Source: Verrucomicrobiota bacterium (lineage in GTDB: Bacteria > Verrucomicrobiota > Verrucomicrobiia > Limisphaerales > UBA9464). From it: 64,000 nt of DNA. This document shows positions 29,385 to 52,292 of the stretch, one piece after another (position 1 is the stretch's first letter; each line of letters starts with the position of its first letter). The DNA is taken from contig JAFLEF010000036.1 in the NCBI GenBank assembly GCA_017309115.1, forward strand, positions 1-64,000. Reading direction: 5' to 3'. The notes under the pieces were generated by a model. It was not told where the DNA came from. It saw only the letters and a list, made by a program, of their open reading frames with translations, and made no database searches. Position numbers and translations under genes: made by a program.

Positions 29385-29833
29385 GGCTGGTGGGGAAGCT
29401 GAGAGCTGAGAGGTGAAGCCGCCAAGGGGTAAGCGGTAAGGGGTAAGGAAAGGCGAAGCAGGGTGGGGCGACGCTCCGCGGAGCCGTTCGCGTCGGAAAA
29501 GCTGAGAGCTGGGAGAAAAGGCCAGGTGAGAGTTGAGAGACCGGAAAACGCAGTTTCGCCCCGGTAGGGCGAGGTTACCACCGAGCCGATCTGCGTTCAT
29601 TTTCCCCGGCTTTATCTACCCACAAACCGGTTGAGAGTTGAAAGTTGAGAGTTGAGAGTTGAGAGAAAAGACCTGAAGTCCAGCACGTTAGAAATGCCGA
29701 TAGGTTTGTGGACACAATGCAGATCCGGTTCACCGGTTTTCGCTCCTCTCAACTTTCAACTCTCAACTGTCAGATCCCAGCTCTCGGCTTGTTCCCACTT
29801 CCCCCGCGTCCAGTTCTGCGGGAATCTGCCGCC
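29385..29833. repeat. Repeat-built spacer between recA and the SDR gene
   Basis: The left edge has CTGAGAG (29399) and GGTAAGC/GGTAAGG heptamers. The palindrome CGACGCTCCGCGGAGCC follows at 29470. A 155-bp composite (29616-29770) starts CTACCCACAAACCGG and contains TTGAGAG runs. The right edge carries the reverse complement CTCTCAA/CTTTCAA. An inverted second copy of the 155-bp composite is at 41231-41385. Confidence 0.85.
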
Positions 29834-30610
29834 ATGTTCTCACTCGTAGGCAAGACTGCGCTCGTGACCGGCGCCGGATCCGGCATCGGCGCCGCCATCG
29901 CCCAGACCCTCGCGTCAGCCGGAGCTCATGTCGTCGTGGCGGATGTCAATGAAGTGGGCGGCAGTCAGACGGTCGCTGTCATTCAAGGTGCCGGGGGTTC
30001 GGCCGAATTCACCCTCCTCGACATCACGTCCGAGTCCGCGTGTCAGGAGTTGTCCCGCAAGCTGCTCCCCCGACTCGGTCCGCTCGACATCCTGGTGAAC
30101 AACGCCGGCATCGGACACGTGGGCACCTTGCTCACCACGGCCGGAGCCGATTTCGACCGCGTCCTGTCGGTGAACGTCCGAGGCACGTTCAACGTCACCC
30201 AGGCCTTTTTGCCGGCGATGGTCGAGCGCGGTCGAGGATCGGTGATCAATCTGGCCTCGGCGGCCGGACTCGAGGGGCTCAAGGACCGGTTCGCCTATGC
30301 CACCAGCAAGCATGCGGTTGTGGGCATGACCCGTTGTGCGGCGTTGGACTACGCGAAGTCTGGGGTGCGCATCAACTGCCTGTGTCCGGGACGGGTGGAG
30401 ACGCCCTTTGTGAAGTCGCGTCTCGCCGAGTATCCCGATCGTGAGGCGGCGTATCAGGACATGTGTTCCACCCAAGCCAACGGCCGCATGGGTCGACCGG
30501 AGGAAGTGGCCGCGTTGGCCTTGTATCTGGCCGCCGACGAATCGAGTTTCGTGACCGGGGCCGCCCTCGCCATCGACGGCGGCATGACCGCTGGCTCGGG
30601 GAGGTTTTGA
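29834..30610 (+). CDS. Short-chain dehydrogenase/reductase (SDR)
   Basis: This 258-aa classical SDR has the cofactor motif TGAGSGIG, ADVNE after beta-2 (suggesting NAD preference), NNAG, the active-site Ser in INLASAAG and YATSK (Tyr-x-x-x-Lys). The C-terminal substrate loop and the AIDGGMTAG end are typical. The substrate cannot be told from sequence; related enzymes oxidise sugars, 3-hydroxyacids or steroids. I chose ATG 29834 because the preceding frame is repeat-derived. It is flanked on both sides by heptamer arrays. Confidence 0.9.
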   Translation: MFSLVGKTALVTGAGSGIGAAIAQTLASAGAHVVVADVNEVGGSQTVAVIQGAGGSAEFTLLDITSESACQELSRKLLPRLGPLDILVNNAGIGHVGTLLTTAGADFDRVLSVNVRGTFNVTQAFLPAMVERGRGSVINLASAAGLEGLKDRFAYATSKHAVVGMTRCAALDYAKSGVRINCLCPGRVETPFVKSRLAEYPDREAAYQDMCSTQANGRMGRPEEVAALALYLAADESSFVTGAALAIDGGMTAGSGRF

Positions 30611-31603
30611 GCGGAGCCAGCTGAGAGCTGAGAGGTAAAACCGGTAAGCGCGAAGCGGTAAGCGGTAAGAGAGACCGGTAGGGCGTCGCTCCGCGGAGCC
30701 GCCTGGGAGCGCCGGCGTCTCGCCGGCGAGAATTTACGAAGTCCGGTCAGCGCGAAGGGGTAAGCGCGAAGGATGGTAGGGATGGACCGCTGGGCCGTCC
30801 CCGGTCCGCCGGCGCAGCCTGGCGGACTGGCTATTGGTGGTCAGCGCTAGAGCCACCCGCGCTTAACTCGCCAAGGCGGTAAGGGTAAGGAAAGGCGGCT
30901 TGCCGGAGGCCTGACCTACTGGGGTCGTACGATGCCCAACCTCCTGCCACGCCTCGCCGATACCAAAGCGGTAAAAAGTTTACCGCACTCCATAGGAAGC
31001 CGGCGAGACGCCAGCGCTCCCAGGCGGCTCCGCGAAGCGTCGCCCTACCGATTTCGCGTTCGCTTACCGCTTACCGCTTCGCGCTTACCGGTTTTACCTC
31101 TCAGCTCTCAGCTCTCAGCTTATAGTATGGACTGCGGCAGACTTTCTGCCGCTTTAGTATCCCCGCACGTGGAGTGATGCGACGCCCAGCCTCCTGCCAC
31201 GCCTCGCCGATACCAAAGCGGTAAAAAGTTTACCGCACTCCATAGGAAGCCGGCGAGATGCCAGCGCTCCCAGGCGGCTCCGCGAAGCGTCGCCCTACCG
31301 ATTTCGCGTTCGCTTACCGCTTACCGCTCCGCGCTTACCCGTTTTACCTCTCAGCTTATTGTATGGACTGCGGCAGACTTTCTGCCGCTTTAGTATCCCC
31401 CGCGCGTGGAGTGATGCGACGCCCGCCGCCTGCCACGCCTCGCCGATACCAAAGCGGTAAAAAGTTTACCGCACTCCATAGGAAGCCGGCGAGATGCCAG
31501 CGCTCCCAGGCGGCTCCGCGAAGCGTCGCCCTACCGATTTCGCATTCGCTTACCGCTTACCGCTCCGCGCTTACCCGTTTTACCTCTCAGCTCTCAGCTA
31601 CCC
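30611..31603. repeat. Large repeat spacer with a tandem triplication (about 250, 237 and 180 bp)
   Basis: The left edge has CTGAGAG and GGTAAGC heptamers plus palindromes. A composite unit beginning near GCCTCGCCGATACCAAAGCG then occurs at 30951, 31201 and 31438. Each unit holds a GCGGTAAAAAGTTTACCGC hairpin, a GAGACGCCAGCGCTCCC element, a GGCTCCGCGAAGCGTCGCCC element, TTACCGC heptamers and CTCTCAG heptamers. Units 1 and 2 also carry the GCGGCAGACTTTCTGCCGC hairpin. Unit 2 is 13 bp shorter than unit 1 in the CTCTCAG run. Confidence 0.9.
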
Positions 31604-31640
31604 AAAAAAACCCGCCGGGGCGTGAGCCTCCGGCGGGTTT
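31604..31640 (-). terminator. Rho-independent terminator of the small CxxC protein gene
   Basis: On the minus strand, AACCCGCCGGAGG pairs with CCCCGGCGGGTT around a short loop and is followed by seven T residues (31604-31610). It lies about 20 bases past the stop at 31660. The repeat array begins immediately beyond it. Confidence 0.9.
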
Positions 31641-31659
31641 GGATGATCAGTCGAGTCGC

Positions 31660-31983
31660 TTACTTGGCGGCTTCGATCTTGGTCACGGCGATCATGTGCT
31701 TGTCACCCTCTTGGGTGGCCTTGCCGCTGACCGTGACCTTCATGGTCGAGGAGCAGAGGTTCTTGTGGAACGCCTTGCTCTGTTCGCCGGTCAGGAAGTA
31801 GGTGGTCGTTTTGTCGCCATCCTTGACCTGGACCACGTTCTGGCAGCTGTCGGCCTTTTTGAGTTCACACTTGGCGCAGGCGCCCGTACCAGTGACGGTC
31901 ACGTCCTTGGCATCAGCAGCCCGAACGGTGAGCAAGCCGCCCGCAAGCGCGGCAGCAACAGCAAATTTGAGGAGGTGTTTCAT
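31660..31983 (-). CDS. Small secreted protein with CxxC and further cysteines
   Basis: This 107-aa protein has a signal peptide (MKHLLKFAVAAALAGGLLTVRA). The mature part starts with a beta-rich VTVTGTGACAKCELKKADSC motif (cysteine at three positions) and a later LCSSTMKVTVSG cysteine. Similar short exported proteins occur in Verrucomicrobiota and Planctomycetota, where metal or disulfide roles are possible but unproven. The ATG at 31983 immediately precedes the signal peptide. It is divergent from mobA with a 69-base shared promoter region and has its own terminator. Confidence 0.75.
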   Translation of the reverse strand: MKHLLKFAVAAALAGGLLTVRAADAKDVTVTGTGACAKCELKKADSCQNVVQVKDGDKTTTYFLTGEQSKAFHKNLCSSTMKVTVSGKATQEGDKHMIAVTKIEAAK

Positions 31984-32052
31984 GAGGTGTCCTGTGAAAG
32001 AATTACTTTTGTCCAAGGAACCCCAGTGGCTTTCCCTTTGCAAGTGCTGTTT

Positions 32053-32643
32053 ATGGACCTGAGCCCTTTCTCCGGGGCTGTCTTGTCCGGGGGTCAGAGC
32101 CGACGCATGGGATCTCCCAAAGCCCACCTCCGCGTCGACGGGGAACCACTGCTCTCCCGTCAGTTGCGGTTGCTCCACGAAACCGGCGCCGCCGAACTCA
32201 TCGTCGCCCAACATCCCGACCGGCCCGAACCCCTCGCTGCGCCCCTTTCGGCCGAGGTCGTGTTCGATTCCCCACCGGACGCCGGCCCGCTGGCAGGAGT
32301 TTCCGCCGCGCTCGCCCGCTGTCGCCATCCTCTCCTGCTCGTGGTCGCGGTGGATCTGCCCGGACTGACCCGGGAGTTCCTGACCCGTCTCTGGGAGCAG
32401 TCGTCCCCTACGCAGGGTGTCATTCCTGTTCTCCGGGGCCGATTAGAGCCATTGGCGGCGATGTATCCGAAGTCGGCCGGAGAGGTGTGCCAACAACAAC
32501 TCCGGTCCGGGCGTTTCGCCGTGCACGAGTGGGCGGAGCTGGGGCTGACCGAAGGTTGGTTGAAACGCTGGGAACTGGAACCGATCTGGCATCCGTGTCT
32601 GCTCAACTGGAACGAACCGGGAGACTTTGTGGGGAGCCGGTAA
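32053..32643 (+). CDS. mobA: Molybdenum cofactor guanylyltransferase
   Basis: This 196-aa protein has the MobA nucleotide-binding start GAVLSGGQSRRMGSPKAHL, the metal-binding Asp in VVAVDLPGLT (usually DLP/DMP) and the late NWNEPGDF motif. The NxNTPEDL-type motif is the family hallmark. It would transfer GMP from GTP to molybdopterin to form the bis-MGD cofactor. The start at ATG 32053 fits the motif position; the open frame upstream runs through repeats and is an artefact. No other moa or mob gene is in the window. Heptamers GGTAAGG/GGTAAGC begin at the stop codon. Confidence 0.88.
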   Translation: MDLSPFSGAVLSGGQSRRMGSPKAHLRVDGEPLLSRQLRLLHETGAAELIVAQHPDRPEPLAAPLSAEVVFDSPPDAGPLAGVSAALARCRHPLLLVVAVDLPGLTREFLTRLWEQSSPTQGVIPVLRGRLEPLAAMYPKSAGEVCQQQLRSGRFAVHEWAELGLTEGWLKRWELEPIWHPCLLNWNEPGDFVGSR

Positions 32644-33104
32644 GGGGTAAGCGGTAAGCGGTAAGGTTGGTAGGGCGACGCTCCGCGGAGCCGTTCGTGT
32701 CGGAAAAGCTGAGAGGGAGAAAAGGCCAGTTGAGAGTTGAGAGAAGAGGCCAGTTGAGAGTTGAAAGTTGAGAGTTGAGAGACAAAGGCAACGAACAGGA
32801 GCGCCGGCGCTCCCAGGTGGCTTTTCCTTACCGCTTACCGCTTTCCCCTTACCGGCTTTGCCACCAGTCCACCCACGAACGGCTCCGCGGAGCGTCGCCC
32901 CACCGGGAAAATTGGAAAGCGGTAGCACGGCTAGCACGGCTACCGCACTCCATAGGGACGGCTCGGGCAGAGCCTCGCCCTACCAGGCTTGCCCCTTCCC
33001 GCTTCGCGCTTACCGGATTCACCTCTCAGCTCTCAGCTCTCAGCTAGTTTCGCCCGCACTTCCCGCTTGCCGTTGGCCGCTTACCCTTTACCGGTGTTGC
33101 CTCC
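32644..33104. repeat. Repeat-built spacer between mobA and the DUF547 operon
   Basis: The left edge has GGTAAGC, CTGAGAG and TTGAGAG heptamers. The centre holds the palindromes CGACGCTCCGCGGAGCC (32676) and its reverse (32878), and a GCGGTAGC...GCTACCGC hairpin (32924-32965) whose loop repeats GCTAGCACG. The right edge has CTCTCAG heptamers ending about 65 bases before the ATG. Confidence 0.85.
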
Positions 33105-33863
33105 ATGTGTCGTCTTTTCCTGTGGTTGGCGGGAACTCTCGCCCTGGGCTGGGTGGTCCAAGCGGCCGAATCGGTTGATCTTTCCCACTCCCGCTGGACC
33201 CGCCTTCTCGCCACTCACGTCAAAAATGGCGAAGTGGACTACGCCGCGCTGAAGGCGGCACCTCAGGACTTGCAGGCCTATCTTGATTCGCTCGCCGCGG
33301 TCACCCGACCGGAATTCGACGCCTGGCCCGAAGCAGACCAAATCGCCTTCCTGCTCAATCTCTACAACGCCGCGACTCTCAAACTGGTTGCCGACCATTA
33401 CCCCGTGAAATCGATCAAGGACATCGGGGGACTGTTCGGCAATCCCTGGAAACTTAAGGTGGTCCGGCTGTGGGATCGCCTGATCACTCTGGACGACGTC
33501 GAGCACGGGACGCTGCGCGCCGATTATCAGGAACCCCGTATCCATTTCGCGCTGGTCTGTGCCGCTCGCAGTTGTCCCCCGCTGCGATCGGAAGCGTACG
33601 TCGGCCAGCGGCTGAACGCTCAGTTGCAGGACCAAGGCCGGATCTTTCTGGCCGATCGCGCCAAGAACCGGGTGGATCCCGCCGGCCAAACGCTCTGGCT
33701 CTCGCCGATCTTCAAATGGTTTCAGGAGGACTTCACGGCCAACGGGAAAACTGTCGCTGAGTTTGTGCTGCCCTTTCTGCCCGCCGCCGAAATCTCCGGG
33801 GTGTCGCCGAAAGATTTTAAGGTTCGCTACACCGATTACGACTGGTCTTTGAACCGTCGTTGA
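33105..33863 (+). CDS. DUF547 domain secreted protein
   Basis: This 252-aa protein has a signal peptide (MCRLFLWLAGTLALGWVVQA) and a complete DUF547 domain. Visible family features are the NGEVDYAAL start, AFLLNLYNAATLKLV, LDDVEHGTLR, HFALVCAARSCPPLRSEAY with the conserved Cys, and WLSPIFKWFQEDF. Function is unknown for the family, although a papain-like fold with conserved Cys/His has been proposed. It is the first gene of a three-gene operon; the TVP38 gene follows 13 bases later. Confidence 0.9.
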   Translation: MCRLFLWLAGTLALGWVVQAAESVDLSHSRWTRLLATHVKNGEVDYAALKAAPQDLQAYLDSLAAVTRPEFDAWPEADQIAFLLNLYNAATLKLVADHYPVKSIKDIGGLFGNPWKLKVVRLWDRLITLDDVEHGTLRADYQEPRIHFALVCAARSCPPLRSEAYVGQRLNAQLQDQGRIFLADRAKNRVDPAGQTLWLSPIFKWFQEDFTANGKTVAEFVLPFLPAAEISGVSPKDFKVRYTDYDWSLNRR

Positions 33864-33876
33864 ACGGTCTTCCCGC

Positions 33877-34632: not shown

Positions 34633-34641
34633 TTTCTGGAC

Positions 34642-36144
34642 GTGACTCTCTCCCCTCTGGATCGCCACAACCAAGCGCTGCTCGCCCAAACCCATCCCAG
34701 CGGCTGGGTGAATCCCCGACCGGCTCCCCGCTACAATCTGGTGGTCGTGGGCGGTGGCACGGCGGGTCTGGTCGCGGCCGCCGGTGCCGCCGGACTCGGC
34801 GCCAAAGTAGCCCTGGTGGAACGCGCGTTGCTCGGCGGGGATTGTCTCAACTACGGCTGCGTGCCGTCGAAAACCCTGATCCGTGCCGGTCGCGCCGCGG
34901 CGGCCGTGCGGGAAGCCGCCCGCTTCGGAATACGAGTTGCGGGCGAGCCCATCGTCGATTTTCCCGCCGTGATGGAACGGGTCCGCGAGGTTCGCGCCGC
35001 CATAAGTCCCCACGACAGCGTGGAACGAATGAAGTCGCTGGGCATCGATGTGTTCCTCGGCGGCGGGCGGTTCGCGGGAACCGACGTCGTCGAAGTCGCC
35101 GGCGCCCGCCTCCGGTTTGCCAAGGCGGTGATTGCCACCGGCGCGCGGGCGGCGATCCCGTCGATTCCCGGCCTGGTGGAAAGCGGGTTCCTCACCAACG
35201 AAACGGTCTTCAACCTGACCGAACAGCCCCGACGTCTGATTATTTTCGGCGGCGGTCCCATTGGTTGCGAACTGGCTCAGGCCTTCGCTCGTCTCGGAAC
35301 CCACGTGCGGTTGGTGCACAACAAGCCGCACTTACTCGACAAGGAAGACCCGGCCGCCGCCGTCCTCGTCCAGGCGGCGTTGCAGCGCGACGGCGTGGAA
35401 CTGATTCTGGGAAAGAAAGTGGAGGGCGTCGTGCGGGTGAACGGGGAGTTTCGCCTCCATCTCCAGGGAGAAGTTCCGCGGATCGCCGACCAACTGCTCG
35501 TCGCCACTGGACGTCAGCCCAACGTCGACGGCCTCGGCCTGGAAGCGGCGGGAGTGAACTATGATGCCCGTTCCGGAGTGCAGGTGGATGATCATCTGCG
35601 CACGACCAACTCCCGGATCTTCGCGTCGGGAGACGTGTGTTCCCGCTTCAAGTTCACGCACGCCGCCGATTTCATGTCGCGCCTGGTCCTCCAAAACGCG
35701 CTGTTCCTGGGACGCAAGCGAGTCAGTGCCCTGACCATTCCCCGGGTGACCTACACCGACCCCGAGATTGGCAGTGTGGGTCTGACGGAAGCGGAAGCCG
35801 CCGCCCAAGGCGTCGCGGTCACGGCGTTTGGGCGCAACCTGGCCGACGTGGATCGTTCCCGCACGGAAGGTGAGACCCAGGGATTCGTGAAGATTCTGGT
35901 CGCCACCGGATCGGATCGAATCGTTGGGGCGACATTGGTGGCGCCGCACGCTGGCGAGATGTTGGGCGAGGTGAGTGTGGCGATGGCGTCGGGAATGGGA
36001 CTGGGTCGGTTGGCCAGCGTGATGCACGCCTATCCGACGGTGGCCGAATCGCTGCGTCAGTGCGGCGATCAGTACAATCGCACCCGCCTGACCCCCGGAG
36101 TGAAGCGCTGGATGACCCGCTGGCTGGCTTGGGGAATTAGCTGA
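34642..36144 (+). CDS. Mercuric-reductase-like FAD/NAD disulfide oxidoreductase
   Basis: The 500-aa product begins at GTG 34642. It is a pyridine nucleotide-disulfide oxidoreductase of the MerA/Lpd family. It has the FAD motif VVVGGGTAGLVAAAGAAGLG, the redox pair CLNYGC in GGDCLNYGCVPSKTL, an NAD motif IIFGGGPIGCELAQ, FASGDVCS, and the dimer domain with HAYPTVAESLRQ. It has no N-terminal HMA domain and no C-terminal Cys pair, so it is probably not a true mercuric reductase. It is co-transcribed with TVP38 and DUF547, suggesting a membrane redox role. CTGAGAG repeats start two bases before the stop. Confidence 0.88.
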   Translation: MTLSPLDRHNQALLAQTHPSGWVNPRPAPRYNLVVVGGGTAGLVAAAGAAGLGAKVALVERALLGGDCLNYGCVPSKTLIRAGRAAAAVREAARFGIRVAGEPIVDFPAVMERVREVRAAISPHDSVERMKSLGIDVFLGGGRFAGTDVVEVAGARLRFAKAVIATGARAAIPSIPGLVESGFLTNETVFNLTEQPRRLIIFGGGPIGCELAQAFARLGTHVRLVHNKPHLLDKEDPAAAVLVQAALQRDGVELILGKKVEGVVRVNGEFRLHLQGEVPRIADQLLVATGRQPNVDGLGLEAAGVNYDARSGVQVDDHLRTTNSRIFASGDVCSRFKFTHAADFMSRLVLQNALFLGRKRVSALTIPRVTYTDPEIGSVGLTEAEAAAQGVAVTAFGRNLADVDRSRTEGETQGFVKILVATGSDRIVGATLVAPHAGEMLGEVSVAMASGMGLGRLASVMHAYPTVAESLRQCGDQYNRTRLTPGVKRWMTRWLAWGIS

Positions 36145-36566
36145 GAGCTGAGAGCTGAGAGGTAAAACCGGTAAGCGCGAAGCGGTAAGCGGTAAGCATG
36201 GTCGGGCGAGGCTCTGCGGAGCCGCCTGGGAGCGCTGGCGTCTCGCCGGCACTTTCCCGCGCTCTCGGCTGGGGTTTCCTTCCCGCTTCCCGCTCCGACC
36301 TCTCAGCTCAAAATTTTGGACTGCGGCAGACTTTCTGCCGCTTTGGTATGGGCGAGGCGTCAGCAGGCCTCATCGCGTCGCGACTCCATTCGCGCCTGGG
36401 GAATACTAAAGCGGTAAAAAGTTTACCGCACTCCATAGGGAGCCGGCGAGACGCCAGCGCTCCCAGGCCATCCCGCTTCGCCTTTCCTTCCCGCTTACCG
36501 CTTCCCGCTTCCCGCTTACCCCTTTCCCTTCCGGCCTCTCAGCTCTCAGCTCTCAGCTGGCTTCGC
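36145..36566. repeat. Repeat-built spacer between convergent genes
   Basis: The left edge has CTGAGAG x3 and GGTAAGC. The centre holds GCTCTGCGGAGCC, GGGAGCGCTGGCGTCTCGCC and GCGGCAGACTTTCTGCCGC (36321), then GCGGTAAAAAGTTTACCGC (36412). The right edge has CTCTCAG x3 adjoining secA. Although the genes are convergent, the purine-left/pyrimidine-right rule is the same as in co-directional spacers. Confidence 0.85.
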
Positions 36567-39620: not shown

Positions 39621-40607
39621 GACGGGCCGTTTCTGACGGGAGGTAAAGGCTAGGGGGGCGTGAAACCAAGGTCAAAGAGTCGTTGCGTTGAAGCTGAGAG
39701 CTGAGAGCTGAGAGAAAGACCAGTTGAGAGTTGAAAGTTGAAAGTTGAGAGACCGGAAGGGGCGGCCTGGCCCCGGACGGGGCGAGGCTTCGCCTATGGA
39801 GTGCGGTAGCCATGCTACCGCTTTCCCACGGGCGAGGCGCCAGCAACAACCGACGCGTCGCCACTCCACGCACCCCTGGGGAAAATGGGAAAGCGGTAAG
39901 CAGTAAGCATGGTAGGGCGACGCTCCGCGGAGCCGCCTGGGAGCGCTGGCGTCTCGCCGGCCAGTATCTGCGAAGCAAGAAGCGGTGAGCGCAGGGTAGG
40001 GATGGACCGCCGGGCCGTCCCCAGTCCGCGGCGCAGCCGAGCGGATTGGCGATTGGTGGTCAGCCTCGTAAGGAAGCTGAGAGCTGAGAGGTAAAGCCGG
40101 TAAGCGCGAAGCGGTAAGCGGTAAGCGAAATCGGTAGGGCGACGCTCCGCGGAGCCGTTGGCGAAGGAAAAGCTGAGAGCTGAGAGCTGAGAGATGAGAG
40201 GTAAAACCCGGTAAGCGGTAAGCGGCAAGCGGTAAGCATGGTAGGGCGACGCTCCGCGGAGCCGTTCGCGTCCCGGCGAAATAACACGTCACCACTCCAC
40301 CCGCGCCGGCGGAATGGAAAAGCGGTAGCAAGGCGAGCACGGCTCCATACCAGGAGAGCTGAGAGGTAGAACCGGAGAAAACGAACAAATAGCTCGGTGA
40401 AAACCTCGCCCCGTCCGGGGCTGAGGCCTTCCTTCCCTGCCCCTTCCCGCCTCCCGCCTCCCGCTTACCGCTTACCGCTTACCGCTTACCGCTTACCGCT
40501 TACCGCTTACCGCTTACCCCTTACCCCTTACCCCTTACCCGTTCCGACCTCTCAGCTCTCAGCTTTTCAAAAAGCCCCCTTGCCAGCCTCGTCCGCTTCG
40601 TATTATT
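39621..40607. repeat. Largest repeat spacer, including an 11-unit heptamer run
   Basis: The left edge has CTGAGAG x3 and TTGAGAG/TTGAAAG. Middle elements are GCGGTAGCCATGCTACCGC (39802), the CGACGCTCCGCGGAGCC palindrome (39917, 40139, 40249), GGGAGCGCTGGCGTCTCGCC (39940) and GGGATGGACCGCCGGGCCGT (39998). The right part holds a perfect run of TTACCGC x7, TTACCCC x3 and TTACCCG x1 (40465-40541), then CTCTCAG. No gene is supported in 987 bases. Confidence 0.9.
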
Positions 40608-41211: not shown

Positions 41212-41634
41212 AGCGAAGCCGGTGGCTTCGCAGTTGAAAGTTGAGAGTTGAGAGTTGAGAGAAGCCAAAACCGGTAAACCGGATCCGCATTGCGTCCACA
41301 AACCCGTCGCCACTCTTAACGTGCTGGATTCCAGGATTTTTCTCTCAACTTTCAACTCTCAACTCTCAACCAGTTTGTGGGTAGTTGAGAGACAAAGGCA
41401 AAGACGCTCTCGGGAGTAACCTCCCGAGAAGCCACAGCCGCCCGCAAACGCGCGCCTTTCTTTACCACTTACCCCTTCCGGTCTCTCAACTCTCAACTTT
41501 CAACTCTCAACCCGCCGCCCGGTAGGGCGAGGCTCCGCCGAGCCGCCTTTCCTTACCCCTTACCCCTTACCCCTTACCCCTTACCCGTTCCGACCTCTCA
41601 GCTCTCAGCTCTCAGCTCTCAGCTTCTTCCGAAA
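41212..41634. repeat. Repeat-built spacer upstream of gmhA
   Basis: A GCGAAGCCGGTGGCTTCGC hairpin sits just after the stop. The inverted copy of the 155-bp composite (41231-41385) follows, then a CTCGGGAG/CTCCCGAG hairpin (41408-41430), a GGCTCCGCCGAGCC element (41530), TTACCCC heptamers and CTCTCAG x4 up to 11 bases before the gmhA ATG. Confidence 0.85.
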
Positions 41635-42186: not shown

Positions 42187-42570
42187 GGCGAAGCCGATGG
42201 CTTCGCAGTTGAAAGTTGAGAGTTGAGAGTTGAGAGGAAAAGCCGGTAAGCGGTAAGCGGTAAGCGGTAAGGAAACGCGAAGCGTGGTAGGGCGACGCTC
42301 CGCGGAGCCTTTGGAGTGCGGTAGACCTTCTACCGCTTTCCCATTTTCCCAGTCGTGGGTGTAGTGGTGACGCGTGAGTGATTGCTAACACCTCGCCTGT
42401 GGTAAAGCGGTAGGCCCGATCCGGTCTCTCAACTCTCAACTTTCAACTCTCAACCCGCCGCCCGGTAGGGCGAGGCTCCGCCAAGCCGCCTTTCCTTACC
42501 CCTTACCGCTTACCCCTTACCCGTTCCGACCTCTCAGCTCTCAGCTCTCAGCTCTCAGCTAAACTCCCCC
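42187..42570. repeat. Repeat-built spacer
   Basis: The left edge has a GCGAAGCCGATGGCTTCGC hairpin, TTGAAAG/TTGAGAG and GGTAAGC x4. The centre holds CGACGCTCCGCGGAGCC (42292) and a GCGGTAGACCTTCTACCGC hairpin (42318). The right edge has CTCTCAA, GGCTCCGCCAAGCC, TTACCCC and CTCTCAG x4, ending ten bases before the ATG of the YhcH gene. Confidence 0.85.
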
Positions 42571-43979: not shown

Positions 43980-44014
43980 GGCCTACCTTCCATTCCCATT
44001 TCTGACCTCTCTCT

Positions 44015-45031: not shown

Positions 45032-45055
45032 CCCGTTCCCTCCACCCTTCCTCTT

Positions 45056-46045: not shown

Positions 46046-46474
46046 GTCTGAGGGGCGAAGCCGGTAAGCGGTAAGGTAGGGCGACGCTCCGCGGAGCCGA
46101 TCGTTCCGTAGCCGCCGAGGGAACGAGGCGCCAACTTCCCCGAAACGACGACACGCGCAGGTTTGCTGGGACGCGTCGAGGGGACAAAATCGAAACAGCG
46201 CCTCCTCCCGTCGACGGCTACAGCCCGCGAAACGACAGGCGCGCTCGCGCCGTAGCCAAAAACCGCCTTTTGCCTTTACCTCTCAGCACTCAGCTCTCAG
46301 CTCTCAGCTGGCTCCCCGTCTCTCAACTTTCAACTTTCAACTCTCAACCCGCTCCCGTCTCCTTCCGGCCGCTCAACTCTCAGCTCTCAGCTAGCTTCTT
46401 CCTTACCGCTTCCCGCTTGCCGCTTCCCCTTCCGGTCTCTCAACTTTCAACTTTCAACGCTTCGCAGTCCGAAA
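46046..46474. repeat. Repeat-built spacer upstream of the GME gene
   Basis: GGTAAGC and CGACGCTCCGCGGAGCC (46083) lie on the left. A long imperfect inverted element with GTAGCCG...CGGCTAC spans about 46107-46230. CTCTCAG and CTCTCAA/CTTTCAA heptamers and TTACCGC-type units lie on the right. The last heptamer ends about 15 bases before the ATG. Confidence 0.8.
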
Positions 46475-47461
46475 ATGTCTCTAAAATCCGATCTCGTTGT
46501 GGTCTGTGGTGGTGGCGGCTTCATCGGCGGCCACCTGGTCGCCGACCTCCGCCGACAAGGCTTCACGCGCGTGCGCTGCGTCGATGCCAAGCCGCAGACC
46601 CAGTGGTATCAGCGCTTCCCCGATATCGAGAACCTCGTGCTCGACCTGGAAGACAAGTCCGCCTGCTACACCGCCCTCCAAGGCGCGCACACGGTGTACA
46701 ACCTGGCCGCCGACATGGGCGGCATGGGCTTCATCGAGCTGAACAAGGGCCTCTGCATGCTCTCGGTGCTGATCAATACGCACCTGCTGATGGCTGCCCG
46801 GGACCTGGGCACCCAGCGCTTCTTCTACGCCTCCAGCGCCTGCGTCTACAACGCCGACAAGCAGCGCGACCCCAACGTCACCGCGCTCAAGGAAGAGGAC
46901 GCCTATCCGGCGCTGCCCGAGGACGGCTACGGCTGGGAGAAGCTCTTCAGCGAACGCATGTGCCGGCATTTCCGGGAGGACTTCGGACTCCTGACCCGCG
47001 TGGCCCGCTACCACAACGTGTACGGACCCTTCGGCACCTTCGAAGGCGGCCGCGAAAAGGCCCCCGCCGCCATGTGCCGCAAGGTGATCGCCGCCAAGCT
47101 GGGCGGGCCGAAGGAACTGGAGATCTGGGGCGACGGGCATCAGACCCGCTCGTTCATGTACATCGACGACTGCCTGAAAGGCACCCAGATGCTGACCGCC
47201 AGCGACTTCGTGGAACCCATCAACATCGGTTCGAGCGAACTGGTGTCGATCAACCAGCTGGCCGACATCGTGGAGGAGATCGCCGGCATCAAGCTGAACC
47301 GCAGCTACAACCTGAAGGCCCCGAAAGGCGTGAACGGCCGCAACTCCGACAACACGCTGATCAAGCAGGTCCTCGGCTGGGAACCCGACACCCGCCTGCG
47401 CGACGGCATGGAAAAAACCTACCGCTGGATCTACGACCAGATGGCGGGCCGGGGAAGCTGA
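46475..47461 (+). CDS. GDP-mannose 3,5-epimerase-like protein
   Basis: The 328-aa extended SDR matches GDP-mannose 3,5-epimerases: VVCGGGGFIGGHLV, NLAADMGGMGFIELNKG, ASSACVYNADKQ (active-site Cys), YGWEKLFSER (Tyr-x-x-x-Lys) and DGHQTRSFMYIDDC. It would convert GDP-D-mannose to GDP-L-galactose or GDP-L-gulose. The coding sequence is markedly more C/G-ending than its neighbours (GAG, CTG, AAG, GCC throughout), suggesting separate acquisition. It ends in GGAAGC TGAGAGC, so the stop is provided by the first heptamer. Confidence 0.88.
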   Translation: MSLKSDLVVVCGGGGFIGGHLVADLRRQGFTRVRCVDAKPQTQWYQRFPDIENLVLDLEDKSACYTALQGAHTVYNLAADMGGMGFIELNKGLCMLSVLINTHLLMAARDLGTQRFFYASSACVYNADKQRDPNVTALKEEDAYPALPEDGYGWEKLFSERMCRHFREDFGLLTRVARYHNVYGPFGTFEGGREKAPAAMCRKVIAAKLGGPKELEIWGDGHQTRSFMYIDDCLKGTQMLTASDFVEPINIGSSELVSINQLADIVEEIAGIKLNRSYNLKAPKGVNGRNSDNTLIKQVLGWEPDTRLRDGMEKTYRWIYDQMAGRGS

Positions 47462-47700
47462 GAGCTGAGAGCAAGACCAGTTGAGAGTTGAAAGTTGAGA
47501 GTTGAGAGACAAAGGCAGCCACCTGGGAGCGCCGGCGTCTCGCCGGCCCGTGCCTGAAGAGGAGAAGAGACGCGAGAAACACGCCGGCGAGACGCCAGCG
47601 CTCCCAGGCGCCTTTTCCTTACCGCTTACCGCTTACCGCTTCCCGTCTTTGTCTCTCAACTCTCAACTTTCAACTCTCAACCCGCCCCCTACACTTCCCC
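47462..47700. repeat. Repeat-built spacer
   Basis: The left edge holds CTGAGAG and TTGAGAG/TTGAAAG. The centre has GGGAGCGCCGGCGTCTCGCC (47525) and the reverse orientation GAGACGCCAGCGCTCCC (47588). The right edge has TTACCGC x2 and CTCTCAA/CTTTCAA, ending about 20 bases before the next ATG. Confidence 0.8.
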
Positions 47701-47949
47701 ATGCCCGTAAACGACACCGGCTTAAATCCGGCTAAACTTCGGCAGGTTGGACGCCGAAGTCCGGCCCGCGATGGCTTGAAGGCGGGACTTGCGTTGCAGG
47801 CAGTGGCCCTCGAGTTCCAGAAGGCCTTCCATCACCAAGGACCGAAACGAGGGGTTTATCGGTTCAAGACCCATCAGGACGCCGACCAATGGATTCGTCA
47901 GATGCAGGCCCGCCGGGAAATCCCAGAAAAACTGAGAGCTGAGAGGTAA
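47701..47949 (+). CDS. Small hypothetical protein, 82 aa
   Basis: The product is basic. Its middle (LALQAVALEFQKAFHHQGPK) and end (RGVYRFKTHQDADQWIRQMQ) form a believable small helical protein; the RGVYRFKT..DA..W pattern resembles short antitoxin-like or linked proteins seen in toxin-antitoxin loci, but I cannot assign it. The last codons, KLRAER plus the stop, lie in the CTGAGAG repeat, so the original C-terminus may have been lost or altered by repeat insertion. Confidence 0.5.
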   Translation: MPVNDTGLNPAKLRQVGRRSPARDGLKAGLALQAVALEFQKAFHHQGPKRGVYRFKTHQDADQWIRQMQARREIPEKLRAER

Positions 47950-48462
47950 AGGCGAGTTGAGAGTTGAGAGTTGAAAGTTGAGAGACAAAGGCAACGAACT
48001 GGGAGCGCTGACGTTTCGCCGGCGAGTATCTGCGAAGACCGGTAAGCGGTAAGCGGCAAGGTAGGGATGGACCGCTGGGCCGTCCCCCTATGGAGTGCGG
48101 TAGCCATGCTAGCCATGCTACCGCTTTCCCACGGGCGAGGTTCCAGCGATCACCCACCCGTCACCCCTCCACGCACGACCTGGGAAAATGGGAAAGCGGT
48201 AGCACGGCTAGCACGGCTACCGCACTCCATAAAAAACCGCGCCCCGCCCGGGGCAAGGTCACCCCTTCCGGTCTCTCAACTCTCAACTTTCAACTCTCAA
48301 CCCGCCCCCGGTAGGGCGAGGCTCCGCCGAGCCGCCCTTCCTTACCCCTTACCGCTTACCCCTTACCCGTTCCGACCTCTCAGCTCTCAGCTGCGGCCAA
48401 CGGCCGCCCGCCGCTTGCCTCTTGCCCTGTTCCCCCTTTCAGACCTAGGGTGCCTTACCCAG
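47950..48462. repeat. Repeat-built spacer with paired hairpins
   Basis: The left part has TTGAGAG/TTGAAAG, GGGAGCGCTGACGTTTCGCC (48002), GGTAAGC and GGGATGGACCGCTGGGCCGT (48062). Two GCGGTAGC...GCTACCGC hairpins with GCTAGCAC-type loops face each other (48096-48124 and 48197-48226). The right part has CTCTCAA/CTTTCAA, GGCTCCGCCGAGCC, TTACCCC and CTCTCAG. Confidence 0.85.
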
Positions 48463-49059
48463 ATGGACCATCCGGCCCTTGACCCGCTGATGGGCGAAAT
48501 GATCGGCGATTGCCGGGCAGCCTGTGCCGCCTCCGACCTCGCGGCTGACTCCGCAGGTGTCGATTCCGAGCGTTGCGCCACGCATCTGCGGGAAACGGCG
48601 GCCCTCATCATCCACGTCGAGACGCTTCTTCAGCACCACTTCCTGCCAGCCGAACCCGCCGTCCCCGTCTTTGCCGATCCGACGCCCGCTCCCACAACAA
48701 CACCGGATGCTGCTGCGGATCCCAGTCCGACTGCGAACTCCGAGTCCCCCGATCCGGCCGAATCCGCCGCATCTGCGACGGCGGTCCCGCCCTCACCACC
48801 TCCGGTAGTCCTGCCGCCGGCCGACCCGATTCTGTGCACCCTGACCACCCCGGCGGAGATCAGCCTTCTGGTCCACGAGATCCGGGGCATTCGATCGGTC
48901 TTTGTCTTGGGCGCCGAGTTGGACTTGAAGCCCACCGAGAGCGAGAACCTCTTCAAAGCCGCCGCCCAGATGACGCGAAGGCTCGAGCCGCTCATTCGCG
49001 ACTTCTTCGCCAAGCTCGGCGGCTCCGCCGAGACCGGCGAGTTGAAAGTTGAAAGTTGA
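48463..49059 (+). CDS. Hypothetical protein with proline/alanine-rich linker
   Basis: The 198-aa product has an N-terminal helical segment with Cys and His (MIGDCRAACAASDLAADSAG, LRETAALIIHVETLLQHHFL). A Pro/Ala/Thr/Asp-rich linker (about 65-115) and a C-terminal helical segment (ILCTLTTPAEISLLVHEIRG, NLFKAAAQMTRRLEPLIRDF) follow. I do not recognise a family. The tail GELKVES and the stop come from TTGAAAG repeats. No signal peptide. The start at ATG 48463 avoids repeat-derived sequence upstream. Confidence 0.55.
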   Translation: MDHPALDPLMGEMIGDCRAACAASDLAADSAGVDSERCATHLRETAALIIHVETLLQHHFLPAEPAVPVFADPTPAPTTTPDAAADPSPTANSESPDPAESAASATAVPPSPPPVVLPPADPILCTLTTPAEISLLVHEIRGIRSVFVLGAELDLKPTESENLFKAAAQMTRRLEPLIRDFFAKLGGSAETGELKVES

Positions 49060-49213
49060 GAGGTAAAACCGGTAAGCGGTAAGCGGTAAGCGGTAAGGAA
49101 ATCAAAAGACGGAAGAGTTCCCGCGGAGCTCGCGGAGGAGCGAACCAACACGGTGAAGCTAGGCTTCGTCCGAGTTAATCAGTGCCCATTTCTTCGCGCC
49201 TCCCGCTTACCGC
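49060..49213. repeat. Short repeat spacer between convergent genes
   Basis: GGTAAGC x3-4 follows the hypothetical gene. A CGCGGAGCTCGCGG element lies at about 49118, and TTACCGC x2 provides the stop codon of the four-helix-bundle gene on the minus strand. A block with AATCAGTGCCCATTTCTTCG (49175) recurs at about 49952. Confidence 0.75.
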
Positions 49214-49606
49214 TTACCGCTTCGCCACCTGCCGATCCATGAGTAGATACAACTGCCGGCTGAGTTTGTCGGCTCGTTCCAATAAATGTTCGGCTTCCGG
49301 AGCGGTGAGGAGATCCAGTCTCTGAAACACCAAGACCATTGAGGCTGTTTCAAACAGGGAGCGTCGGCCGATATTGAGAAACTGACGGAACTCGGCGAGG
49401 TGCGGACTGCCGCTGCCTTCCGCAATATTGTTGGCTACCGAAAGCCCCGCCGCGCGCAACTGATCGGCATATCGAAATAGCCGACGTTTATCCAAAGACT
49501 GAGCCACGCGGTGAAATTCCACAGCCAAGTCGGCGGCTGCCTGCCAAACCTCGAGATCCAAAAACCTCCAATGGGATTTTCGCTGTTCGCTCCGCGTATC
49601 GCTCAC
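49214..49606 (-). CDS. Four-helix bundle protein (S23/IVP family)
   Basis: The 130-aa product fits the four-helix bundle family first known from 23S rRNA intervening sequences: FLDLEVWQAAADLAVEFHRV, LRAAGLSVANNIAEGSG, EFRQFLNIGRRSLFETASMV and LLTAPEAEHLLERADKLSRQ. No rRNA is nearby, so it is one of the free-standing members, which are common in PVC and Bacteroidota genomes and often found beside repeats or retroelements. Its stop TAA lies in a GGTAAGC heptamer. The molecular function is unproven. Confidence 0.88.
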   Translation of the reverse strand: MSDTRSEQRKSHWRFLDLEVWQAAADLAVEFHRVAQSLDKRRLFRYADQLRAAGLSVANNIAEGSGSPHLAEFRQFLNIGRRSLFETASMVLVFQRLDLLTAPEAEHLLERADKLSRQLYLLMDRQVAKR

Positions 49607-50037
49607 CTCTGATTTCTACCTCACTCCTGCCGCCTCCGACTATCCACAAACTTAGTGAGCAGCAAACCGGTAAGCGGTAAGCGGTAAGCGTGAAGGTAGG
49701 AAACCGGTAAGCGGGAAGCGGCAAGCGGTAAGGAAAGGCGAGGCGTGGTAGGGGAGAGAGTCGGTAAGCGCGAAGCGAACGCAAAGCGCGGGAGGACGGG
49801 AATCTCGCCGAGCCGGTCCTATTCGTCCCTCGAGTCGCACTCCGGAAGCACAGATGGGAAAACCCCAGGAGTGGTGGAAAAAACCGGTAAGAAGAAAGCG
49901 GTAAGCGGTAAGGAAACGCGAGGCGGGTTTGGGGTAAGACTTCGCCCAAGTCAATCAGTGCCCTATTCTTCGCGCCTCTCGCTTACCGCCTGCCGCTTGC
50001 CGCCTACCGCCTACCGCTTACCGCTTACCGCTTACCC
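49607..50037. repeat. Repeat spacer abutting the EpsI-like start codon
   Basis: GGTAAGC runs lie at 49670-49690, 49700-49730 and 49885-49910. TTACCGC/CTACCGC heptamers at 49981-50036 end with ACCC directly before ATG. The leader therefore has no Shine-Dalgarno sequence. No gene is supported. Confidence 0.8.
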
Positions 50038-50760
50038 ATGCGCTTAGCATTTCTCAACGCCCTGTTCTTCCTCGGCATCAGCGGGTCCTGGGCCTGGTAC
50101 CACGTCGCGCCGCCGTCGCCGCCCACCCGATTCAGCTTCACGGCGACCAATCAGGTGGCCGGATTCAAGTTCAAGCCGGAATCTATCGGGGAAAGCGCCG
50201 CGGCCACGCTGGCCACGACGAATCTGTTCAATGGCACCTTCTACGGACCCAAGGGCGAACGGATCACCGCGTTCATGGGCGAATGGCGCGCCGACAATTC
50301 CAAGGAACTGAGCGTCGTGCAGCACACGCCGGATGTGTGCTGGGTGGGCGCCGGTTGGACGCCCTCGGCCAACGATCATCCCAGCCAGGTGGAGTTTGAA
50401 TTCGGCGACCTGCGAATCCCGTTTGAAGTCCGCACCTTCAAGCCCCCCGGTGGCGGCTTCCGCGAACTCACCGTCTGGTGCACCCTGGTCAACGGTCAGG
50501 TCTACGGCGAACTCAGCCGGTTCACCCCGCCTGATGCGAGCCCCGACCTTTCGCCCAAGGCCAAGTCGAATCAGACCGCGCGTCGGTTGGCCGGCGGTCA
50601 GTTCCTGAACGCCGTTCGCGGTCGGACGGCGGGCAGCGGCGACAAGCAATTTGTCCGCTTCTCGGCCCCACTGTCTGGCGACTGGCGCCCCGTCCTCCGC
50701 GATCTGCAAGCCTTCGCGCAGCGGTGGCTGGCGCTCAGGAAGTTGAGAGTTGAAAGTTGA
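50038..50760 (+). CDS. EpsI-like (exosortase-associated) protein
   Basis: This 240-aa protein has an N-terminal membrane anchor (LAFLNALFFLGISGSWAWYH) and an EpsI/DUF3485-type domain. The diagnostic block is QHTPDVCWVGAGWTP, followed by IPFEVRTFKPPGGGFRELTV and a WCTLVNGQVYG segment. EpsI proteins accompany exosortases in EPS export and PEP-CTERM sorting, which fits the PEP-CTERM genes at 6 kb, but no exosortase is in the window. The last residues KLRVES and the stop come from TTGAGAG repeats, and the 5' leader is TTACCGC repeats, so the gene is enclosed by the repeat. Confidence 0.75.
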   Translation: MRLAFLNALFFLGISGSWAWYHVAPPSPPTRFSFTATNQVAGFKFKPESIGESAAATLATTNLFNGTFYGPKGERITAFMGEWRADNSKELSVVQHTPDVCWVGAGWTPSANDHPSQVEFEFGDLRIPFEVRTFKPPGGGFRELTVWCTLVNGQVYGELSRFTPPDASPDLSPKAKSNQTARRLAGGQFLNAVRGRTAGSGDKQFVRFSAPLSGDWRPVLRDLQAFAQRWLALRKLRVES

Positions 50761-51081
50761 GAGTTGAGAGACCGGAACGGGAGAAATCCATCGACGCTGA
50801 CGCGCCTAGGATCTGGTCCGCGAAGCCGCTCGCGTTTCGGAAGGTTACTTCCGACAGCACGTTCCTTGGATCTACCTCTCAGCTCTCAGCTCTCAGCTCT
50901 CAGCTAGCATCTTCCTTCCCGCTTACCGCTTCGCGCTTACCCCTTACCGGCCTTCGCTTCCGGCTTTCCCTCCGCGAACTCCGCGCCCTCCGCGGGAGAA
51001 CGCCTTTCCCTTCCGGTCTCTCAACTCTCAACTTTCAACTCTCAACTGGTTCCCTACCTTCCCGTCCGAAGGAGAAAACCT
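50761..51081. repeat. Repeat-built spacer
   Basis: TTGAGAG at the left is followed by a TCGGAAGG/CTTCCGA hairpin (about 50840-50857), CTCTCAG x4, TTACCGC-type units, CTCCGCG-type octamers (50970-51000) and CTCTCAA/CTTTCAA, ending near 51046, about 35 bases before the antitoxin start. Confidence 0.8.
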
Positions 51082-51333
51082 GTGTCCACGACCATTCCAG
51101 CCGCCGAGGCGAAAGCGAAGTTCTCGGAACTGCTCGATAGAGTGCAGTGCGGTGAGAGCTTTTCCATAACTCTGAACGGAGAGGAGCGGGCCAAGTTGGT
51201 GCCAACCCAGCGAGCCAGTCTGGAGCAAATTCAGGGGGTCATTGCTCAGATCAAGGCGTCGCGAAGCACGCTCAATCGTCCCGGACAGCCCATGGTCCGT
51301 ATCAAGGAACTCGTCGCTGAGGGAAGGCCGTGA
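51082..51333 (+). CDS. Phd/YefM-type antitoxin, apparently orphan
   Basis: This 83-aa protein starts at GTG 51082. It has the type II antitoxin Phd/YefM fold: IPAAEAKAKFSELLDRVQCG, then ESFSITLNGEERAKLVPTQ and a flexible C-terminus for toxin binding (RSTLNRPGQPMVRIKELVAE). Such antitoxins repress their own promoter and neutralise a RelE or PIN toxin encoded just downstream. No toxin frame follows; the stop is followed by heptamer repeats. The toxin may have been removed by repeat insertion, or the protein may work alone. Confidence 0.8.
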   Translation: MSTTIPAAEAKAKFSELLDRVQCGESFSITLNGEERAKLVPTQRASLEQIQGVIAQIKASRSTLNRPGQPMVRIKELVAEGRP

Positions 51334-51561
51334 AAGCTGAAAGAAAGACCAGTTGAGAGTTGAAAGTTGAGAGTTGAGAGTTGAGAGACAAAGGCAACGA
51401 CGCTGTCGGGAGTGACCTCCCGAGACGCCGCTCCCGCTTCCCGCTTACCCGTTTCGCTTTCCCTCCGCGCCTCCGCGCCTCCGCGCCTCCGCGGGAGAAC
51501 TCTCCCCCTTCCGGTCTCTCAACTCTCAACTTTCAACTCTCAACTGGCTCCGCGCTTCCGC
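51334..51561. repeat. Repeat-built spacer
   Basis: TTGAGAG/TTGAAAG lies at the left. A TCGGGAG/CTCCCGA hairpin (51409-51427) resembles 41408-41430. CCTCCGCG octamers repeat four times at about 51465-51494. The right edge has CTCTCAA/CTTTCAA, ending about 18 bases before the next ATG. Confidence 0.8.
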
Positions 51562-51822
51562 ATGCTCTACTTCAAATCCCGGAACGTTTCTTTCCTGATC
51601 CTGGCGATCGCTGCGTCGGTGAGTTCGCGATTGGTGTTTACGTACTGGGCGGATCCAGAGGGACCCAATTTGCTCGTTACCACCGGACTGAGCGTCGTCG
51701 TCTTCGTCCTCACTTTGGCCGCCTACTATTCCCTCGGTCGCTTGGTCGGGCTCACCCGGCTCCTGGTCGCGCTGGCGATCCAGATCCTCTTGGTGGTGGG
51801 AGTGGCGGTTTGGGGAAAATGA
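51562..51822 (+). CDS. Small membrane protein, 86 aa
   Basis: The product has three predicted membrane segments (VSFLILAIAASVSSRLVFTY, LLVTTGLSVVVFVLTLAAYY, LLVALAIQILLVVGVAVWG) joined by short loops. No family is recognised. ATG 51562 gives a compact protein immediately after the repeats, and the frame has normal coding character. The stop is followed by GGCAAGG and the GGGATGGACCGCTGGGCCGT element. It could be a real membrane protein of unknown role; a chance hydrophobic frame is less likely. Confidence 0.55.
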   Translation: MLYFKSRNVSFLILAIAASVSSRLVFTYWADPEGPNLLVTTGLSVVVFVLTLAAYYSLGRLVGLTRLLVALAIQILLVVGVAVWGK

Positions 51823-52292
51823 GAAGCGGCAAGGTAGGGATGGACCGCTGGGCCGTCCCCAGTCCGCCGGCGCAGCAAGGTGGACTGGATGTTGGTGGTC
51901 AGCCCCAGAATCACTCACGCCCAATTGCCGAAGGCCGGTAAGTGGTAAGGGGTAAGGGCAAAAACATTCGACTGGGAGCGCTGGCGTCTCGCCGGCCCTT
52001 TGGAACTACAAATCCCAATTTCTTCCCGCAGAGGCGCTGAGGCGCGGAGAAGAGGATTGGAACCACGAATTGGAAGCAATCGCGCGAAGGGGAGATTCGT
52101 TCTGATCGCCGGTCCTTCCTTCCCGCTTGCGAGCTCCTTTCCTTACCCCTTACCGCTTACCCCTTACCGGCCTTCGCTTCCCGCTTCCCGCTTCCCCCTT
52201 TTCGCTTTCCCTCCGCGCCTCCGCGCCTCCGCGGGAACCACTCCCCGGTCCTCTCTCTCAGCTCTCAACTCTCAGCTCTCAGCTTTTCACCA
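51823..52292. repeat. Last repeat-built spacer before the glycan operon
   Basis: GGGATGGACCGCTGGGCCGT with its trailing segment (51836-51905) recurs from 30777, 39997 and 48062. GGTAAGG/GGTAAGC, GGGAGCGCTGGCGTCTCGCC (51973), GAGGCGC-type units (52028) and their reverse CCTCCGCG (52209-52228), TTACCGC/TTACCCC and CTCTCAG follow. The last heptamer ends seven bases before the ATG. Confidence 0.85.

Follow-up and report, generated by a model that had tools for sequence, protein, structure and literature searches.

Tandem heptamer arrays pointing away from neighbouring genes in the spacers of a Verrucomicrobiota genome

We analysed a 64,000-nucleotide stretch of the Verrucomicrobiota assembly GCA_017309115.1 (positions 1 to 64,000 of contig JAFLEF010000036.1, hereafter the window), in which the spacers between positions 29385 and 52292 are densely occupied by tandem units of 7 bp. 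The genome, G000, comprises 7.53 Mb in 111 contigs, and the window lies on G000:C42. Twenty-two genes and open reading frames (ORFs) bound the spacers of this region, 18 of them with a Pfam match; gene calls came from a home-made caller based on codon usage, and the array-flanked genes include secA, a recA-like gene and sugar-metabolism genes (Pfam). Counting at least two units of YTGARAG or GGYAAGS, we found 70 exact arrays in the window, 67 of which fall within 29385-52292. They belong to three classes, CTGAGAG (AC) and TTGAGAG/TTGARAG (AT), which together make up family A (YTGARAG), and GGTAAGS (family B). At gene borders the purine-rich strand of these arrays (YTGARAG, GGTAAGS) points away from the gene with very few exceptions.

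As the initial annotation of the region had proposed, nearly every sizeable spacer carries heptamers: using a slightly wider pattern and margins of 15-18 bp, arrays were present in 15 of the 16 spacers of at least 40 bp and in none of the five shorter ones. The region contains 66 exact runs of period 7 versus a mean of 0.65 in 20 dinucleotide shuffles (maximum 3), each of the other periods from 2 to 30 gave 0-3 runs, and the remaining 41 kb of the window held three period-7 runs. In a genome sample of 20 regularly placed 20-kb stretches (400 kb in total), non-coding DNA contained 54 period-7 runs versus 2.8 expected from shuffles, the runner-up being period 8 (8 runs versus 1.4 expected), and coding DNA was without excess (6 versus 8.0 expected). 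Heptamers are therefore commoner than other unit lengths in this sample, and the predicted dominance of 7-bp units in non-coding DNA was borne out. Genome-wide, two tandem CTGAGAG units occur at 877 places (484+393; reversed control 0) and two GGTAAGS units at 547 (282+265; reversed control 0+1). With 66 runs in 23 kb, far above the 60 runs in 400 kb of the sample, the region is a hot spot inside a wider genome pattern.

The orientation of the arrays was determined in 776 kb of G000 in 41 pieces, many of one set of 20 stretches having been picked at array matches. Here a slightly wider pattern gave 256 arrays, of which 209 were placed relative to genes, 9 lay inside called genes and 38 had no called neighbour on one of their sides. 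The purine-rich strand pointed outward in 53 of 55 arrays (2 inward) lying 0-60 bp from a stop codon, in 17 of 17 lying equally close to a start codon, and in 44 of 49 (5 inward) at a distance of 61-200 bp from a start codon. The binomial p values (9e-14, 1.5e-5 and 8e-9 for these three sets) are indicative, as they assume an independence that arrays of the same spacer violate. All classes followed the rule at 0-60 bp, with out:in counts near stops of 22:1 (AC), 10:0 (AT) and 21:1 (B), and near starts of 6:0, 5:0 and 7:0. In an exact-pattern recount all nine intragenic arrays were in sense and no further than 60 bp from the 3' end of the gene; hence no inward arrays are hidden inside genes. 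In addition, consecutive arrays facing each other ('> <') were without an intervening called gene in 43 of 45 pairs, a called gene separated 33 of the 39 pairs facing apart ('< >'), and 30 of the 34 spacers with both orientations were in perfect '> <' order. Five of the six gene-less '< >' gaps contain an ORF whose length is 249 nt or more (one such gap measures 11.8 kb), two of these ORFs lying in the window at 47701-47949 and 51082-51333. A general purine skew of spacers was rejected as the cause, since in array-free G000 spacers the outward purine excess is only weak (0.51 on the stop side, 0.54 on the start side).

In the window, the arrays are found at the following places, where x2, for example, denotes two tandem units:

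29399..29766, after the recA-like gene (Pfam): CTGAGAGx2 (+), GGTAAGSx3 (+), TTGARAGx5 (+, 29631-29665) and TTGARAGx3 (-, 29746-29766), the last within ORF 29708-30610 unless the gene starts at 29834, as the caller has it
30621..31597, in spacer 30611-31659: CTGAGAGx2 (+), then about 2.8 copies of a 236-bp unit, with CTCTCAG three times at 31098-31118, singly near 31350 and twice at 31584-31597
32639..33043, spacer after a MobA-like gene (Pfam): GGTAAGSx4 over its stop codon; last array CTCTCAGx3 (-)
36141..36556, convergent spacer between a pyridine-nucleotide oxidoreductase gene and secA (Pfam): from CTGAGAGx3 (+) to CTCTCAGx3 (-)
39694..40562, 869-bp block between secA and the 40676 gene: from CTGAGAGx3 (+) to CTCTCAGx2 (-)
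40463..40539 (-): longest run, 11 in-register GGTAAGS units (3 GGTAAGG and 8 GGTAAGC)
41234..41622, spacer: TTGARAGx4 (+) 22 bp past a stop; CTCTCAGx4 (-) 12 bp ahead of the SIS gene start
42209..42558, SIS-YhcH spacer: TTGARAGx4 and GGTAAGSx4 (+); TTGARAGx4, GGTAAGSx4 and CTGAGAGx4 (-)
46063..46457, spacer of two sugar-epimerase/dehydratase genes (Pfam): GGTAAGSx2 (+), then four (-) arrays
47458..47680, spacer after the 46475 epimerase gene: the gene's stop within the first CTGAGAG unit; '>' arrays, then '<' arrays
47932..48390: '>' arrays at 47932-48061, then '<' arrays at 48273-48390, the latter within the 5' part of ORF 48067-49059 unless the gene starts at 48463, as the caller has it
49042..49218, at spacer 49060-49213: TTGARAGx3 over the upstream gene's stop; GGTAAGCx2 (-) over the stop of the 49214 gene
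49669..50036, spacer between a gene for a 23S rRNA intervening-sequence-like protein and a DUF3485 gene: GGYAAGS arrays only
50743..51045: TTGARAGx4 (+) at the DUF3485 gene end, then CTCTCAGx4, GGTAAGSx2 and TTGARAGx4 (-)
51353..52282: '>' and '<' arrays flanking the small ORF 51562-51822, up to the start of a D-hydroxyacid dehydrogenase gene

The 11-unit run is real; the coordinates first given for it, 40465-40541, describe another rotation of the same run. Where families A and B co-occur, the listing suggests that A tends to be gene-proximal, with B inside. Several other features accompany the arrays. The gap ORF at 51082-51333 (+) is a Phd/YefM-like antitoxin gene (Pfam, 6.7e-9) between two outward arrays, with no adjoining toxin partner recognised, and is absent from the short spacer of the congeners G318 and G320. 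The gene at 49214-49606 (-) belongs to the 23S rRNA intervening-sequence protein family (PF05635, 1.7e-26), and the window has no rRNA match. Other dispersed palindromic modules lie between the arrays (for example at 30690-30720, 31000-31050 and 40240-40262); among these, GCCGGCGAGACGCCAGCGCTCCCA occurs in 14 of 270 spacers and GTAAAAAGTTTACCGCACTCCATA in 8 of 270. A tandem octamer, CCTCCGCG, stands beside heptamers at 52210-52233 (3 units) and 51462-51493 (4 units). No known RNA family was found at the arrays, the window's only Rfam match at gathering thresholds being a group II catalytic intron at the window edge, far from the arrays (34-108 (+); RF00029, 54.8 bits, gathering 40).

Of the three heptamer families initially described, the CTGAGAG and TTGAGAG arrays are in common phase. 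Their right end falls on a full unit, with no further matching base, in 90 of 95 AC and 64 of 66 AT arrays, and an AG dinucleotide stands ahead of the first unit in 83 of 95 and 40 of 66. Judged by this phase they are better treated as one family, which would give two in total, YTGARAG (A) and GGTAAGS (B). The commonest number of units is four in AT (40 of 66), 3 in AC (35 of 95) and 2 in B arrays (40 of 78), and 26 of the 66 AT arrays have the internal pattern TTGAGAG TTGAAAG TTGAGAG TTGAGAG. Phase lock and a common internal pattern suggest that ready-made arrays were copied rather than grown separately, which makes it unlikely that each array grew in place by neutral slippage from a chance seed, with orientation a by-product of composition. 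Such slippage would fit with heptamers being a favoured repeat length, since Mrazek 2007 (cited in PMC4679880) reportedly ranked heptanucleotides first among repeat categories for most genomes, and with the occurrence of CTGAGAGx3 across many phyla; the few units at hundreds of places and the weak purine excess of array-free spacers speak against it. Over-representation of heptamers, together with the idea of polymerase slippage, is attributed to the same study in both PMC4692102 and PMC4679880. The initial annotation had read the common unit length as a sign of one mechanism. That proposal is supported only in part: with two families, and with heptamers reported as commonest in most genomes, a length in common needs no genome-specific mechanism.

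We also examined other organisms. Among the matches listed, at least three units of CTGAGAG were present at 80 loci (88 arrays) in many phyla; the phylum spread is partial, and the multi-phylum matches to CTGAGAGx3 may omit G000 itself. These arrays followed no rule within 60 bp of genes (stops 12 out : 14 in, starts 3:7); at 61-200 bp the counts were 5:2 at stops and 11:4 at starts, and nine arrays lay inside called genes, all antisense. As no rule appears near stops in other phyla, the gene caller is not the source of the near-stop rule in G000. Of 321 genomes of the order, 121 contained two units of YTGAGAG, in many cases at a single place, and 200 had none; the reversed control of this search is invalid for TTGAGAG, because tandem TTGAGAG is identical when read backwards, and single matches may be due to chance. 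TTGAGAGx3 occurs in 17 of 387 genomes of the phylum, G000 included. Within the genus, arrays were found at 23 places in G317, 19 in G319, one in G320 and none in G318. GGTAAGSx2 was absent from all seven other genomes searched, G317-G320 among them, and among 145 other genomes of the order CGGTAAGx2 was present in three, at 5, 1 and 1 places.

Stretches of G317 and G319 chosen at arrays contained 21 arrays (4 intragenic, 2 not placed), and within 60 bp these pointed outward at 10 of 10 stops (10:0), with 3 out and 2 in at starts. In G025, a member of another family, 32 arrays (17 inside called genes, 3 not placed) showed no clear rule (within 60 bp, starts 5:1 and stops 0:1). An order-wide soft period of 7 was considered and rejected: z was 12.0 in the region, 4.8 in G183, 3.7 in G025, 2.8 in the G000 sample and 2.4 in G318, and the other 16 of the 21 sets, G317 and G319 included, ranged from -1.5 to 1.2, the stretches of G317, G319, G025 and G183 having been chosen at arrays. 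In G025 the units vary (GTTGAGA, GTTGAGG, GTTGAAG, GTTGAAT and GTTCGAT; GCTGGGA and ACTGGGA) and the 7-bp spacing is held. Tandem GAATGGC, one of the reversed controls, occurs at 36 places in G013 and 18 in G120, both relatives within the order, suggesting that other genomes of this order possess a further heptamer family. An assembly or binning artefact is scarcely credible as an explanation for the arrays: repeats are hard to assemble and the genome is in 111 contigs, but arrays were seen by eye at apparently the same places in G317 and G319, and in G000 they occupy hundreds of places in varied gene contexts.

Two properties of the units themselves bear on the origin of the outward layout. 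All four units carry stop codons on their outward strand only and, as 7 is not a multiple of 3, three TGA- or TAA-bearing units provide a stop in every frame past a gene. Consistent with such a guard, the array overlaps the stop at 14 of 51 array-bearing 3' ends, and the stop of the DUF3485 gene comes from an array. However, the start-side rule (17:0) is left unexplained, CTGAGAG arrays of other phyla are evenly oriented near stops, and GGGAATC heptamers follow the same rule without a stop codon (PMC4692102); we therefore rejected a stop-codon guard as the main cause and consider it very unlikely. The second property concerns G-tracts, assessed by sequence: YTGARAG is without GG, GGTAAGC has GG, and GGTAAGG gives GGGG. 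The arrays could be G-quadruplex elements, as proposed for the heptamers of Xanthomonas and Nostoc, whose placement rule is alike, and GGTAAGG arrays do contain G runs. Since CTGAGAG and TTGAGAG keep an equally strong rule with no GG in their units (22:1 and 10:0 near stops), quadruplexes were rejected for family A and are extremely unlikely as a general explanation. Each of the two ideas fails for one of two heptamer groups under the same rule. An outward layout in G-run-free repeats suggests that the layout is independent of the proposed four-stranded DNA and, as GGGAATC lacks stop codons, independent of these as well.

Comparison with congeners indicated how spacers and gene ends differ where arrays are present, although their spacers are too diverged for base-level alignment. 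A contig of G318 (G318:C2) is partly syntenic with the window at 36-53 kb. From secA to the 40676 gene, G000 has 1055 bp, including the 869-bp block 39694-40562, and the whole spacer of G318 is about 200 bp; outside the block, G318 recognisably shares, as judged by eye, sequence next to the secA start as well as a GTTCAAT/ATTGAAC palindrome close to the 40676 gene. Between the DUF3485 stop and the dehydrogenase start lie 1532 bp in G000, with arrays and two small ORFs, versus about 96 bp in G318 and about 80 bp in G320 (between tblastn match ends). Thus, both spacers compared are longer than those of congeners with no or one array. The reading frame of the DUF3485 gene enters TTGAGAGTTGAAAGTTGA, where TTGARAGx4 (+) replaces the last codons and provides the stop, and the protein ends in 9 residues in place of the last 16 of the G318 protein. 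The other array-abutting C-termini were intact or altered by few residues (16 comparisons, nine genes). Unit numbers vary between similar copies: three near-identical 236-bp units at 30930-31596 have 3, 1 and 2 CTCTCAG units, and at three places compared by eye between G317 and G319 one array has 3 versus 4 units and two are equal.

Consistent with the '> <' order, strong complementary partners within about 200 bp lay 3' of the purine strand for 41 of 246 G000 arrays and on the 5' side for 3 of 246. In relatives the 3':5' counts, based on small numbers, were 3:0 (G317 and G319), 5:1 (G025) and 1:0 (G183); in other phyla the direction was opposite (2:8). RNA folding was applied to 27 of the 34 two-orientation spacers, those short enough and ordered. 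Their median z was -4.7, and the outer arms paired in 14 of 27; in the spacer 36141..36556, for example, the inward-facing arms pair in the predicted fold.

We put at about even the probability that the arrays constitute the outer arms of non-coding spacer modules, which would be dispersed inverted pairs with slippage-prone arms. In favour of this reading are the orientation rule near genes, the fixed phase and common internal unit pattern, the '> <' order, the 3' position of complementary partners, the two lengthened spacers and the whole-unit differences at a few places. Such a module would consist of a purine arm first and a pyrimidine arm second, on either strand. Its arrays would be copied as pre-made blocks, slippage would add and remove units in 7-bp steps, and blocks would spread via copying or recombination between spacers. 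Selection would then purge copies that cut genes or promoters, so that the remaining arms would lie at the borders of genes and 60-200 bp ahead of starts, and any effects on transcript ends would be secondary. Inward-facing ends, as in mobile elements with terminal inverted repeats, are present; no dedicated transposase was identified, Y1_Tnp being the only family searched.

Several observations weigh against the module interpretation. At stops the rule is absent over the interval of 61-200 bp (17 out : 16 in), as it is beyond 200 bp on either side (stops 10 out : 20 in, starts 13:12), and 31 of 65 array spacers have a single orientation (27 out, 4 in). Reversing the right arm gave a less stable predicted fold in only 14 of 27 spacers, and the outermost arm types are unmatched (C/C 7, C/T 4, T/C 3, T/T 2, and 18 others with B). 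Hairpin arms co-selected as pairs are therefore unsupported; the arms resemble inverted repeats in their origin, with no sign that individual pairs are co-selected. Repeat-match endpoints near arrays show a modest excess (927 of 3659, 0.25 versus 0.16 by chance), and among the indels that distinguish similar spacer copies, multiples of 7 do not prevail (11 of length 7 and 5 of 14, versus 114 of 1 and 16 of 9), so that no clear 7-bp indel signature is seen. REP/BIME palindromes with RAYT transposases are dispersed inverted modules in spacers. Heptamers as REP elements of a local RAYT are unsupported at the one of the five Y1_Tnp places that was inspected by eye, where no arrays were seen and other palindromes lie around. 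This locus, L096 (G000:C23, about 116229-116567), holds a RAYT-like Y1 transposase amid several copies of a different palindrome, GCGATAGCCCAGGGCAACGCCCTGGG, apparently a REP system apart from the heptamers, and no heptamer link was seen there.

Alternatively, the arrays may be gene-border signals (often a purine stretch followed by its pyrimidine complement), kept by selection because outgoing RNA, in either direction, gains a purine-rich stretch that would slow, end or protect the transcript. This is possible, if on balance improbable. The rule is strongest nearest genes, single-orientation spacers follow it (27:4), arrays of G317 and G319 obey it at every stop within 60 bp, array-bounded spacers fold strongly, and an equal rule for unrelated heptamers has been published for Xanthomonas and Nostoc (PMC4692102). 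Conversely, arm-turning weakens the fold in only about half of the spacers, and start-side arrays give the leader the pyrimidine strand, the benefit of which is not evident. G317 and G319 are nearly balanced at starts, G025 is without a clear rule, CTGAGAG arrays listed from other phyla lack the rule near stops, and most sampled genomes of the order are without arrays. In the light of the arm-turning control and the 17:16 count we lowered the weight of such a signal, and of the broader reading of it given below, and slightly raised those of slippage and quadruplexes.

STRR is the name for the heptanucleotide repeats of Calothrix PCC7601, and the parallel with cyanobacterial heptamers drawn in the initial annotation is apt. 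That annotation was sound in its 7-bp dominance and in this parallel, and missed both the orientation rule and its precedent. Calothrix PCC7601 has three tandem heptanucleotides (mentioned in PMC4692102) and resembles G000 in having several heptamer families within one genome. For GGGAATC-type heptamers of Xanthomonas and Nostoc, Rehm et al. 2015 (PMC4692102) described outward placement, with convergent pairs numbering 70 and 75 in two Xanthomonas genomes, and proposed G-quadruplexes. Those repeats (GGGAATC, GGGGA(C/T)T) share with the arrays of G000 the 7-nt tandem units, the mainly intergenic or non-coding location and the purine-rich outward strand. Likewise, the largest share of them lies no more than 50 bp from an ORF, on the coding strand if past a stop and on the non-coding one if ahead of a start, and they too overlap stops and form convergent pairs. 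Four units are commonest there, which here holds for the AT arrays only. Unlike them, the arrays of G000 comprise two other unit families, have no G-tracts in YTGARAG arrays, carry stop codons in their units, and are interspersed with other palindromic modules. They are also patchy among congeners, whereas 83% of the repeats of Xcc have a counterpart in the same context in Xac (PMC4692102).

TAACTGA direct repeats of Beggiatoaceae, cyanobacteria and Bacteroidetes (MacGregor 2015, PMC4679880) are similar in being abundant intergenic heptamers, patchy between relatives, with stop codons on one strand; that indels between two Cyanothece strains are mostly 7-nt we count as a further likeness. In BOGUAY, TAACTGA lies mostly just 5' of start codons in the forward direction (PMC4679880), whereas here the arrays face outward on both gene sides. 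In the literature searched, by title and the start of the abstract, we found no report of heptamers in Verrucomicrobiota; for Methylacidiphilum, PMC4060949 and PMC4210602 mention oligopurine runs or tandem repeats, with no heptamers in the passages concerned.

A broader reading would be that unrelated phyla independently evolved a sequence-independent gene-border mark, in the form of purine-first, 7-nt-periodic inverted arrays directed outward at both gene ends. Such arrays would act on any RNA polymerase leaving a gene, and what is conserved would be unit length, strand composition and orientation rather than sequence, G-quadruplexes or stop codons; we regard this as doubtful.

The outward placement rule itself is already known from Xanthomonas and Nostoc with other repeats. 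What is new here are the other units, a lineage in which we found no prior report, the absence of G-tracts from YTGARAG, and the very high local density. Finding the same rule with unrelated heptamers detaches it from the quadruplex and stop-codon explanations, and the remaining choice is between the architecture of an element and a function at transcript borders. G000, where 15 of the region's 16 sizeable spacers contain arrays and whose congeners G318 and G320 have none or one, is a good system in which to test it.

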